Assembly: GCF_003522965.1 (NCBI RefSeq)
Contig: NZ_CP031513.1
Span: 62,001-126,000 of the forward strand
Reading direction: 5' to 3'
DNA from: Bombilactobacillus bombi
GTDB lineage: Bacteria; Bacillota; Bacilli; Lactobacillales; Lactobacillaceae
DNA length: 64,000 bases
Part shown: positions 39,634 through 45,480 of the stretch, piece by piece
How the letters are laid out: each line of letters begins with the position of its first letter
How positions within the stretch are numbered: position 1 is the first letter of the stretch
Translations under genes and position numbers: made by a program
Notes under the pieces: generated by a model
Database searches by the model: none
What the model was told of the DNA's origin: nothing
The model's input: only the letters and a program-made list of their open reading frames with translations

Positions 39634-41130
<1,497 letters not shown>

Positions 41131-41200: not shown

Positions 41201-41230
41201 AATACAGTCGTTGGTTAGCCAATGATTGTT

Positions 41231-41303
41231 GAGTCGCTAGCTCAGTTGGTAGAGCAACGGCCTTTTAAGCCGTGGGTCGTGGGTCCGAGCCCCACGCGAC
41301 TCA
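41231..41303 (+). tRNA. tRNA-Lys (anticodon TTT)
   Basis: The 73-base cloverleaf has acceptor arms GAGTCGC and GCGACTC, anticodon stem ACGGC/GCCGT with loop CTTTTAA, and T-arm GTGGG.CCCAC. Discriminator is A; CCA is not encoded. It is first in the cluster, close behind lysS. Confidence 0.95.
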
Positions 41304-41336
41304 TTAACTGCTAATAAGTGCAGTTACTTTAATATT

Positions 41337-41408
41337 GCGGAAGTAGTTCAGTGGTAGAACATCACCTTGCCATGGTGGGGGTCGCGGGTTCGAATCCCGT
41401 CTTCCGCT
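41337..41408 (+). tRNA. tRNA-Gly (anticodon GCC), copy 1
   Basis: The 72-base cloverleaf has acceptor arms GCGGAAG and CTTCCGC, anticodon loop TTGCCAT and a standard T-arm. Discriminator is T; CCA is not encoded. An identical copy lies at 41611. Confidence 0.95.
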
Positions 41409-41419
41409 TTTGTTACCTT

Positions 41420-41505
41420 GCCGGGGTGGCGGAACTGGCAGACGCACAGGACTTAAAATCCTGCGGTAAGTGATTACCGTACCGGTTCGATTCCGGTCCT
41501 CGGCA
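41420..41505 (+). tRNA. tRNA-Leu (anticodon TAA)
   Basis: The 86-base cloverleaf has acceptor arms GCCGGGG and CCTCGGC (one wobble), anticodon stem CAGGA/TCCTG with loop CTTAAAA and a long variable arm (GGTAAGTGATTACC), which marks a class II tRNA. Discriminator is A; CCA is not encoded. Confidence 0.95.
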
Positions 41506-41508
41506 TAT

Positions 41509-41582
41509 GCACCCATAGCGCAATTGGATAGAGTGTCTGACTACGAATCAGAAGGTTGTAGGTTCGACTCCTACTGGGTGCA
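41509..41582 (+). tRNA. tRNA-Arg (anticodon ACG)
   Basis: The 74-base cloverleaf has acceptor arms GCACCCA and TGGGTGC and anticodon stem CTGA/TCAG with loop containing ACG. A34 is expected to be edited to inosine by TadA so that CGU, CGC and CGA are read. CCA is not encoded. Confidence 0.94.
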
Positions 41583-41610
41583 TTATTACAATTTAATAGT
41601 TATCTTTTTT

Positions 41611-41682
41611 GCGGAAGTAGTTCAGTGGTAGAACATCACCTTGCCATGGTGGGGGTCGCGGGTTCGAATCCCGTCTTCCGCT
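41611..41682 (+). tRNA. tRNA-Gly (anticodon GCC), copy 2
   Basis: All 72 bases are the same as the copy at 41337-41408, and the flanks differ. Two gene copies probably raise the dose of the main glycine tRNA. Confidence 0.95.
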
Positions 41683-41691
41683 TTTTTATTT

Positions 41692-41765
41692 CGGGAAATA
41701 GCTCAGCTTGGTAGAGCGCTGCGTTCGGGACGCAGAGGTCGCAAGTTCGAATCTTGTTTTCCCGA
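41692..41765 (+). tRNA. tRNA-Pro (anticodon CGG)
   Basis: The 74-base cloverleaf has acceptor arms CGGGAAA and TTTCCCG and anticodon stem CTGCG/CGCAG with loop TTCGGGA, which gives anticodon CGG for the rare codon CCG. The discriminator is A and CCA is not encoded. A TGG-type proline tRNA must lie elsewhere. Confidence 0.9.
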
Positions 41766-41801
41766 TTTTTTAACGATAATAATCGGGAAATAAAGACTAG
41801 G

Positions 41802-41837
41802 CTCAACACATTAGAATTTTGATGTGTTGAGTTTTTT
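41802..41837 (+). terminator. intrinsic terminator of the tRNA cluster
   Basis: CTCAACACAT and ATGTGTTGAG form a perfect 10-pair stem around a 10-base loop, followed by six T. Confidence 0.9.
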
Positions 41838-41941
41838 AGTTGGAAGATTAACTACTATAAGATCAATATAATAGCGTTTCTTATTAAATTTTTATTGCCA
41901 TATTCCAGTTATTACCACTGTAATAGGCCTTCCTACAAAAT

Positions 41942-41971
41942 AAGAATTGATATCAGCTATTACCAATTCTT
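41942..41971. repeat. inverted repeat before the XRE/TPR regulator gene
   Basis: AAGAATTG and CAATTCTT are perfect complements separated by 14 bases. A promoter-like pair (TTGATA at 41972 and TATCAT at 41994, 16 apart) begins directly after it. It could be an operator for the downstream regulator. Confidence 0.4.
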
Positions 41972-42025
41972 TTGATATAATTAAAGTATACGGTATCATA
42001 TATTAGATTTTGGGGGATGAGATTT

Positions 42026-42925
42026 GTGGATATTGAAAAATTTATTGCACGCAGAAAACAATTAGGATATTCACAATTTTCTTTGAGTCAAGGTATTTGT
42101 ACGCAATCAACTTTAAGTAAATTTGAAAATCGGAAACAGACACCGGCTTTGCCGATTTTAGAGCGATTGTGTGATCGTTTAGATTTGACTATTGCAGAAT
42201 TAAATGAAGATGATCCGACATCGATCAATTTTGCCAGCCACAAACTTGATCAAATTGAAGAGAATCTAATGGTAGAAAATTATAATGACGCAATTATTAA
42301 TTTACAACAAATTGATTATCAAAAGTTAAGATCAAACCAGGGGCGTCTGCAATACTGTTATCTTAAAGGGATGTTTTTAGCTGTGAGTGATACAAACGAT
42401 GCTGAGGCAGAATTATATTTTCGACGAATTTTAAACGAGTTAGATCCTAAACAAAGTACAATGTTTACGCAATTATCATATTTAGGACTTGGCATTGTTG
42501 CAGATCACCAGCATGATGACGAAACAGCAACATTAATGTTCAACAAAGTTCAACTATATGTAGCAACTAGTTTAACCGAAGGAATAGCAGATTTTCGAAC
42601 CAAACAAATTTTTCGGTTATTAACTTTGATGTTTTATTTAGCTACATATTTAGCTGAACATGACCGGCTGGATCAGAGTAATAAATTATTAGATGAAGAA
42701 CTTGATGTCTCTTCGCAAAGACATGTTACTTACTATGTAACCCGTGCGAAATTTCTTCAAGCGCAAAACTCTTGGAAATTGAATCATGATATTGTGAAAT
42801 TGAAATCTTTATTGAGTGAAACACTTATTTTTGCTAAATTTAATCGCAACCAAGTAGTTCCTAAACAGGTAGCTAAATTGCTACGGAAACTTGAAAAAAA
42901 GAATAAAGTTAAGCAAAAATCTTAA
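42026..42925 (+). CDS. XRE-type helix-turn-helix regulator with TPR-like C-terminal domain (Rgg/PlcR-like)
   Basis: The 299-residue product has an N-terminal HTH (about 1-60: [18 protein letters not shown], then [10 protein letters not shown] and [11 protein letters not shown]) and an all-helical remainder of the kind seen in Rgg and PlcR family peptide-responsive regulators. GTG 42026 is preferred to an in-frame ATG at 42017 because the GGGGG motif (42010-42014) sits too close to the ATG and because relatives begin MDI.KFIARRK. No peptide pheromone gene is evident in the flanks. It occupies the place where ctsR usually precedes clpC in related genomes, so control of clpC is an attractive but untested idea. 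A perfect inverted repeat lies upstream. Confidence 0.8.
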
Positions 42926-42941
42926 TTAAAAAAGGCATCAT

Positions 42942-42971
42942 TTATCATAATTGTAACAATTGTGGTATACT
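42942..42971 (+). promoter_or_regulatory. clpC promoter with central palindrome
   Basis: TTATCA and TATACT are 18 bases apart, with TG at the extended -10 position. The spacer contains AATTGTAACAATT (42949-42961), a perfect 6-1-6 palindrome. No CtsR heptad repeats (GTCAAA) or CIRCE element are present. Confidence 0.6.
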
Positions 42972-43002
42972 TTCAAAACAGTATGAGAAAGAAGGGCTGT
43001 TA

Positions 43003-45480
43003 ATGAATGAAATATTTACTGCAAGTGCCAAAGAGTCACTGCGTTTGGCCCAGCAGGCAGCTAAAAAATTTCACCACCACGCCGTGGGTAGTGAACATAT
43101 ATTATATGGTTTGGTTAAAGAAGGTTCTGGCGTAGCTGCTAAAACCATTATTGATTTATCAATATCTGCAGAAGATATCAAAGATGAAATTGAAGCTATG
43201 ACTGGATATGGAACTGAAGATACTAAAGCAAATAACGTTATGTATTTACCTTATTCACCACGTGCTGGTCAAATTCTAGAAGCAGCTGGTCAACAAGCTA
43301 AGCTATTAGAAGCGCCTCAGATTGGTACCAGCCACATTTTATTAGTTTTATTACGAGATCAAACAATATTAGCTTCTCGTATTCTGGCCAATTTGGGAAT
43401 TAGTGTGGTCAAAACTCGTAAATTATTATTACAAAAGATGGGGATTTCAACTAAGGGTGATAGTAAAAAGCGCGCTACACAGCAGCAAACACTCAGTGGT
43501 AAAAGCAGTACTCCTACCTTAGATTCGTTAGCAAGAGATTTAACACAATATGCACAGGAAAAACAATTAGACCCAGTAATTGGGCGTGATTCAGAAATTG
43601 AACGTACAATTCAAATTTTAAGTCGCCGCACTAAGAATAATCCAGTTTTATTAGGTGAGCCAGGTGTGGGCAAAACTGCGATTGTTGAAGGTTTAGCACA
43701 AAAAATTATTGCTGGTGAAGTCCCTGTGGAAATGACCAACAAGCGTTTAATGCTTTTAGATATGGGTTCATTAGTAGCTGGTACTAAATATCGGGGTGAA
43801 TTTGAAGATCGCTTAAAAAAGATTATTAATGAGATTTATCATGATGGCAATGTTATATTGTTTGTGGATGAATTACACACGATGATTGGTGCTGGTGGAG
43901 CTGAAGGGGCAATCGATGCTTCTAATATCTTAAAGCCTGCGCTCTCGCGCGGTGAGTTGCAAATGATTGGGGCAACAACTTTAGATGAATATCAAAAATA
44001 TATTGAAAAAGATGCAGCCTTTGCGCGAAGATTTGCTAAAGTGCAAGTTGAAGAACCTTCAGTTGCTGATAGCTTTTTGATTTTACAAGGTTTGCGACCA
44101 GAATATGAAGAACATCATCAATTAAAGATTACTGACGAAGCCTTAAAAGCAGCCGTAAAGTTATCTCAACGATATTTGCCTAATCGCTTTTTGCCAGATA
44201 AGGCGATTGATTTAATTGATGAAGCTAGTGCTAGTGTTCATATCAAAGCCAGTTCTACACGAGCAATTGATAAAATAGAACAGCTTGAACACCGACTTAA
44301 TACTGCTTCACAAGCTAAGGAGCAGGCTATTACTGACCAAAATTTTGAAGAAGCTGCTCGTTATCGGCAAGAAGAGATGACTTTTAAACATAAGTTGGAG
44401 AAACAAGAACAAAAATCTGATAAACGTAATCGAAAGTCATTACCACATGTGCAAGAACAAGATATTGCTCAAGTAGTTTCACAATGGACAGGAATTCCCG
44501 TTTCCAAAATGACTAACCACCAATCACGGCAATTATTGAATCTTGAAAAAGAGTTGCACCAACGAGTGGTTGGACAAGAAGAAGCTATTAGTGCGGTAGC
44601 ACGTGCTATTAGACGTGCTCGTAGTGGCTTAAAAGATCCACAGCATCCAATTGGTTCATTTTTGTTTATGGGGCCAACCGGAGTTGGGAAGACGGAATTA
44701 GCTAAGGCACTAGCAGCTAGTATGTTTGGCAAGGAAACAGATATTATTAGAATTGATATGTCGGAATACATGGAAAAATTCAGTACTTCACGACTAGTTG
44801 GTTCTGCACCAGGCTATGTTGGCTATGAAGAAGGTGGCCAATTAACCGAGCAGGTGCGAAATCATCCTTATTCAGTTATTTTGTTGGATGAAGTGGAAAA
44901 GGCTCATCGGGATGTCTTTAACTTATTGTTACAAGTATTAGATGATGGCTTTTTAACTGACTCTAAAGGCCGCAAAGTTGATTTTCGAAATACGGTTATT
45001 ATTATGACTTCCAACTTAGGAGCAACAACTTTACGGGATACACACACTGTTGGCTTTAACGAAACCACAATAACGAACCATTATGAAAGTATGAAACAAC
45101 AAATTCTTGCAGAAACAAAACAATTTTTCCGACCAGAGTTTTTGAATCGGATTGATGATATTTTAGTTTTCCATGAATTGACAAAAACTGACTTGCATCA
45201 GATTATTAAAATTATGTCTCAAGGTTTAATTAAACGTTTGAATGAACAACAAATTAAACTAAAATTAACCCCGAAAGCAATGGATTATTTAGTTGAAAAG
45301 GGTTATAACTCTGAACTAGGGGCCCGCCCACTACGGCGCACAATTCAAGTCGAAGTCGAAGATCAGATTAGTGACTTATTATTATCCAATCAATTGCGTG
45401 CTGGTGATCAATTATCAGTAGGAGCTGCCAAGCAGCAATTAAAATTTAATATACGACATCCAGAAACTATTCAAGCATAA
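43003..45480 (+). CDS. clpC: ATP-dependent Clp protease ATP-binding subunit ClpC
   Basis: ClpC is an AAA+ unfoldase that feeds ClpP and removes aggregated or regulatory proteins. The 825-residue product has the double Clp-N repeat (1-145), first ATPase with Walker [10 protein letters not shown] near 218, a UVR-type middle domain ([11 protein letters not shown] near 450), second ATPase with GPTGVGKTE near 557 and a ClpB-D2-small C-terminal domain. The ClpP-binding loop is expected near 680. The start ATG follows AGAAGGGC. ctsR, mcsA and mcsB are not adjacent, unlike Bacillus; many lactobacilli keep ctsR directly upstream. Confidence 0.97.

Follow-up and report, generated by a model that had tools for sequence, protein, structure and literature searches.

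What stands in the place of ctsR upstream of clpC, and what controls the class III stress genes where CtsR is missing, are the questions raised by this locus, which lies in a 64,000-nucleotide stretch of DNA from Bombilactobacillus bombi (the window; all positions below are those of the window unless a locus is named). In the five ctsR-bearing regions that we read, the gene order is tRNA-Pro, ctsR, clpC. In the window an open reading frame for an XRE-type regulator occupies the corresponding place between tRNA-Pro and clpC (Table 1), just as the original prediction had it, and lysS, the tRNA genes, the regulator gene, clpC and the rpoB and rpoC genes that follow it (the latter two named by reading) are all on the forward strand. 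The products ClpE, GroES/EL, GrpE, DnaK, LysS, RpoB and RpoC, and the inserted genes of the sister genome G002 described below, were named by reading unless a domain match is given.

Table 1. Features of the lysS-clpC region, in window coordinates.
Feature	Positions	Strand	Basis
lysS	39634-41130	+	named by reading
six-tRNA cluster (Lys, Gly, Leu, Arg, Gly, Pro), 5' of the regulator gene	41230..41766	+	ARAGORN
tRNA-Pro, last of the cluster	41691-41766	+	ARAGORN
intrinsic-terminator-like hairpin closing the tRNA cluster	41799..41834	+	consensus scan
candidate regulator promoter, TTGATA-N16-TATCAT	41972..41999	+	consensus scan only, 10/12
XRE helix-turn-helix regulator, C-terminal part helical, 302 aa	42017..42925	+	ORF, Pfam, relatives
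clpC promoter region, extended -10 TGTGGTATACT	42936..43001	+	conserved in sister species that lack the regulator
clpC, 825 aa	43003..45480	+	ClpC name from synteny (before rpoB) and reading

The consensus scan of the region returned two terminator-like sites, where 0.7 were expected from shuffles, and ten promoter-like sites (5.6 expected). The true start of the regulator may be the GTG at 42026, giving a protein of 299 aa, because GGGGG (42012-42016) lies 9 nt upstream of it and the relatives start at about the same place. We also considered whether the composition of the gene is foreign and set this aside: its GC content (0.326) is somewhat low compared with clpC (0.378) and lysS (0.370), its third-position GC is 0.238 (clpC, 0.251; lysS, 0.218), and a strong sign is absent.

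The genome is a single closed contig of 1,842,084 bases rated 100% complete, and the CtsR model PF05848 has no match anywhere in it at E <= 0.001; the same model matches 218 of 301 family genomes as well as the Lactococcus lactis control. The absence of ctsR 5' of clpC thus held up, the gene found there matching HTH_3, and the suggestion that ctsR had moved elsewhere did not. Moreover, none of the seven genomes of the genus has CtsR, and within the family 13 of 40 genera lack it and 27 keep it. ClpC was detected in 295 of the 301 family genomes (E <= 1e-250), and therefore clpC stays while CtsR goes. In 13 regions from three other ctsR-less genera (g4, g12 and g21) tRNA genes are immediately 5' of clpC, with L246 as an exception in having one 86-codon frame on the opposite strand between the two, and in two genomes of g35 a transporter-like gene precedes clpC. 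Our family survey qualifies the view in the available part of PMC3842655, which describes lactic acid bacteria as quite consistently having CtsR. Model searches can miss diverged proteins, and a diverged CtsR invisible to the Pfam model, or another repressor acting on clpC, would also fit a genome with no match; however, the model scores CtsR in the family at E 1e-19 to 1e-36, this genus yields no match of intermediate strength, and clpE and clpP have lost their CtsR boxes too, which makes this explanation highly improbable.

The clpC promoter itself carries neither of the expected operators. Within 600 bp 5' of clpC the best CIRCE candidate has 8 mismatches in 18 positions and the best CtsR box 4 in 15, and 400 shuffles of promoters from the survey mostly gave 7-8 and 4-5, respectively; the best sites are no better than shuffles, in agreement with the reported lack of CtsR heptads and CIRCE before clpC. 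Likewise, clpC is without CIRCE or CtsR box in the seven genomes of the genus and in 15 other ctsR-less genomes, and a CtsR box is present ahead of ctsR-clpC in four of the five ctsR-bearing regions. The promoter region is 97% identical to that of G002 over 34 bp, and matches that of G005 at 17/17 bp and then at 91% over 43 bp. This likeness begins approximately 10 bp past the stop codon of the regulator gene, and conservation is lower in the other four sister species. The promoter core is identical in sisters that lack the regulator, and clpC is probably driven constitutively.

As to where class III control went, HrcA (PF01628) scores over the cut-off in all seven genomes of the genus, and CIRCE-like sites in the genome studied here precede hrcA-grpE-dnaK (0 mismatches, plus a further site with 3), hsp20 (0; gene identified by Pfam), clpE (1), groESL (2) and clpP (3; gene identified by Pfam). 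At the three-mismatch level the reversed control pattern gives 0-2 hits per genome. A CIRCE with one mismatch is found before clpE in every one of the seven genomes. The three-mismatch clpP site recurs in G000, G001, G002 and G004, the four species in which clpP was located, and similar sites occur in G003 and G005 with none in G006; it is only this recurrence in four species that appears to set the clpP site of the genus apart from the noise of the control. The clpP operator of the genus (L150:1642-1668) has a perfect right CIRCE arm, but its left arm reads GAG in place of CTC, an arrangement also seen in g21, and is possibly a variant HrcA site.

The survey of other genera covered 600 bp upstream of clpE or clpP in 21 of the 27 ctsR-less genomes found among 91 searched and, with one genome per genus, in 19 (clpP) and 22 (clpE) of about 60 ctsR-bearing genomes, corresponding to 40 of 47 planned clpP regions and 40 of 44 planned clpE regions. 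Among the ctsR-less genomes, a CIRCE of no more than 3 mismatches precedes clpE in 18/18 (all with at most 2) and clpP in 18/21 (14/21 with at most 2), and a CtsR box with at most 2 mismatches is found in 0/18 and 0/21. For the ctsR-bearing genomes the CtsR box is present at clpE in 19/22 and at clpP in 18/19, with CIRCE as well in 9/22 and 6/19, respectively. The same thresholds applied to the 400 shuffles returned no CIRCE and four CtsR boxes. The ctsR-less genera g2, g7 and g39 (L181, L182, L183) are exceptions: their clpP is not preceded by a CIRCE, and ClpE gives no match at the cut-off. Taken with the sites in the genome studied here, we infer that HrcA represses clpE and hsp20 through CIRCE, and probably clpP as well. 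The idea that clpC control had been rewired is therefore supported only in part: class III control appears to have changed hands, with CIRCE at clpE, clpP and hsp20, but clpC itself has no CIRCE.

In a quick ClpE tree covering 46 genomes (G003 left out; G038, G041 and G043 included without promoter data) three changes of the CtsR state are needed, and two of these are forced by strongly supported branches. The ctsR-less genera fall into the groups {g1, g4, g27, g35, g37, g40}, {g12, g21} and {g8, g16}. We read the changes as losses because CtsR is widely spread in the family, and the tree then suggests that ctsR was lost in two or three lineages. Both operators are present at clpE or clpP in the ctsR-bearing genera g14, g11 and g10, which are near the first two ctsR-less groups, and also in g3, g6 and g19, near the third, suggesting that genera of this kind are the likely bridge and that the handover went via dual control. 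A contrast test of the handover had only 2-3 independent pairs and was not significant (median p 0.5), with the clpP of G005 entered as 3 mismatches though its clpP was not located and that of G006 entered as no site (none in the CIRCE scan). The apparent handover is thus well described but statistically unproven.

If class III control passed to HrcA, what is the regulator doing before clpC? It precedes clpC in one of the seven species of the genus and is absent from this place in the other six, five of which have an interval of 125-273 bp from the last tRNA gene to clpC. As a genus-wide substitute for CtsR, which is missing in 7/7, it was accordingly rejected. The six sisters, also without CtsR and none with the regulator before clpC, likewise count against the proposal that clpC control was rewired to this regulator, as does the comparison of gene order, where clpC stands without it and the promoter is conserved in two of them. 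Searched with the regulator protein, the six sister genomes gave best matches of E 5e-11 (G001) and 9e-9 (G002), and four were without a match at 1e-8. The best relatives (43% and 42% identity; E 1e-73 and 7e-72) are both in g6, a CtsR-bearing genus, and no relatives were found in viral contigs.

The tRNA-clpC slot of G002 (L135:5990-9785) contains, by reading, a peptidase gene, a transporter gene and a transposase-like HTH fragment. Since a peptidase and a transporter gene are found there, the slot accepts insertions, and this place beside tRNA genes looks to be an insertion hot spot. It could still be that the absence of the regulator in the sisters reflects loss rather than its late arrival; in that case the genus would ancestrally have had it before clpC as the successor of CtsR, and six species would have lost it. 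It occupies precisely the place where ctsR used to be, and in a tree of its relatives it forms a long branch without a supported place. On the other hand, a convincing remnant is absent from the sister intergenic stretches (the best match, E 0.023 over 38 residues, is in G006, and the stretch upstream of the regulator itself gives 0.041), clpC directly follows tRNA genes in the 13 regions of the three other ctsR-less genera, and several separate losses would be needed; we regard ancestral succession as very unlikely. The regulator is probably not a replacement of CtsR. With the regulator in 1/7 species, CtsR in 0/7 and the clpC promoter conserved in two sisters that lack the regulator, we infer that ctsR was lost first and that the regulator was inserted later.

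The relatives give some indication of what such an inserted gene might do. Residues 11-62 of the regulator match Pfam HTH_3 (E 6e-8), the remainder being without a Pfam domain. Matches to ComR_TPR are weak and limited to 6 of 24 relatives (best E 9e-4); of the fold originally proposed, the XRE helix-turn-helix is thereby borne out, and the TPR-like character of the helical C-terminal part is likely, only some relatives matching weakly. A structure model from the single sequence has a mean pLDDT of 40. The family profile compared with the PDB gave as its best matches, after one designed protein, Rgg-type, PrgX and PlcR chains (E 0.003-0.007, mostly over the HTH), which, like ComR, belong to the RRNPP type of regulator. 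No Rgg model is among the Pfam and NCBIfam matches of the regulator or among the families listed for 24 aligned members. A distant RRNPP relationship of the family is likely, the regulator being a candidate member only. The frames beside it are all short (20-57 codons), and by eye none is outstanding as a cognate peptide gene.

Among the 29 best-scoring relative loci (L012-L040; 8 genera, many close kin), a gene of the PF01883 (SufT) type for FeS assembly lies just before the regulator gene in 26, as judged by eye (with a gap of approximately 260 bp in L023) and confirmed by Pfam in five, and sufB often precedes sufT. This order, an XRE regulator gene directly after a sufT-type gene, is a conserved pairing that appears to lack a name and may have to do with iron-sulfur assembly; no name for the regulator family was found in the open-licence literature. 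Of these loci, 28/29 are in CtsR-keeping genera. The order in L035 is sufB, sufT, regulator, VIT1, and in the sisters G005 and G002 a VIT1-like gene directly follows sufT. The genome of the window has no PF01883 match, and the suf operon of the sisters G005 and G002 (L266:5446-11545) is absent from the matching place (L267); its regulator therefore appears to be an orphan within a sufT-linked family. At L267:9037-10678 the genome of the window has two adjoining frames that both correspond to a single 547-aa protein, intact in G005 and by reading of the peptide-binding type; they probably represent a broken gene.

The chief rival to a regulator with targets of its own is a direct takeover of clpC in this one species, either by binding to the clpC promoter or through co-transcription, with clpC following the regulator gene on one transcript; ClpC would then answer the regulator's own signal. 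The two genes are on the same strand, 77 bp apart, and the consensus scan found no terminator-like site in this gap. Furthermore, the clpC promoter contains the palindrome AATTGTAACAATT, not seen in the clpC promoters of G002 and G005, and AAGAATTG-N14-CAATTCTT, with a similar half-site, lies in the promoter of the regulator. As operators of the regulator and clpC promoters we rejected both palindromes, however, since they are within chance (113/300 and 40/300 shuffles), and the promoter core shared with regulator-less sisters also speaks against a takeover. There is a precedent of a kind: according to the available part of PMC3199253, clpC and other heat-shock genes of S. thermophilus need the regulator Rgg0182 to be fully expressed, but this protein did not bind the hrcA promoter and the authors propose that some effects are indirect. 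Overall, we consider direct takeover unlikely. The fuller version, that after ctsR loss one species put clpC under an inserted RRNPP-like, sufT-linked regulator through a shared transcript or direct binding, is quite doubtful; were it true, the ClpC level would follow a peptide, iron-sulfur or metabolic signal and not heat.

The explanation that we favour, and consider likely, is that HrcA represses clpE, hsp20 and probably clpP, that clpC is expressed constitutively from its own promoter, and that the regulator has its own targets. An ancestor of the genus would have lost the ctsR gene that usually lies between tRNA-Pro and clpC, with clpE, clpP and hsp20 coming under HrcA repression via CIRCE, probably through a bridge state like that of the ctsR-bearing relatives with both operators. 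In this scheme clpC gained no CIRCE and is probably transcribed constitutively from a predicted sigma-A promoter with an extended -10. Later, in one species of the seven sampled, an XRE regulator of the sufT-linked family would have been inserted between the tRNA terminator and the already existing clpC promoter, where its targets are most likely its own gene or distant ones. Its transcript may read through into clpC, given that a terminator was not found between the two.

If so, two or three lineages have lost one repressor, most of whose targets are held by a second, and the dual-operator genera are the visible intermediates, such that regulon handover becomes testable in cultured lactobacilli. 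CtsR control of the Clp proteases should not be assumed family-wide, and a gene in a former regulator's place need not be the replacement of that regulator. That CtsR and HrcA are mosaic in their presence, that some targets are under both and that the HrcA regulon is expanded in Lactobacillaceae is already published (PMC3616900); the part of that source available to us lists dual control for groSL and hrcA-grpE-dnaKJ, with clpE and clpP unmentioned there. A link between ctsR loss and CIRCE at clpE and clpP was not found in the parts of the open-licence literature accessible to us.

Finally, the locus can be set beside three known types of system. With RRNPP regulators (Rgg, PrgX, PlcR, ComR) the regulator has in common an XRE HTH and, after it, a helical part that is probably TPR-like, but the matches are weak, a clear adjoining cognate peptide gene was not seen, and 26 of 29 close relatives adjoin a sufT-type gene. 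With the CtsR class III regulon and its ctsR-clpC arrangement, as described for L. plantarum in the available part of PMC3842655, it shares the slot, that is, tRNA-Pro, a gene for a DNA-binding regulator and clpC; here, in contrast, the protein is of the XRE type and not CtsR, the CtsR boxes are gone and the slot is without a regulator in six sisters. With the HrcA/CIRCE class I regulon of the Lactobacillales, as far as it is covered by the accessible part of PMC3616900, the genome studied here shares HrcA and CIRCE at hrcA-grpE-dnaK and groESL, and it differs from the systems described there in that CtsR is gone and CIRCE is found before clpE, hsp20 and, in weaker form, clpP.
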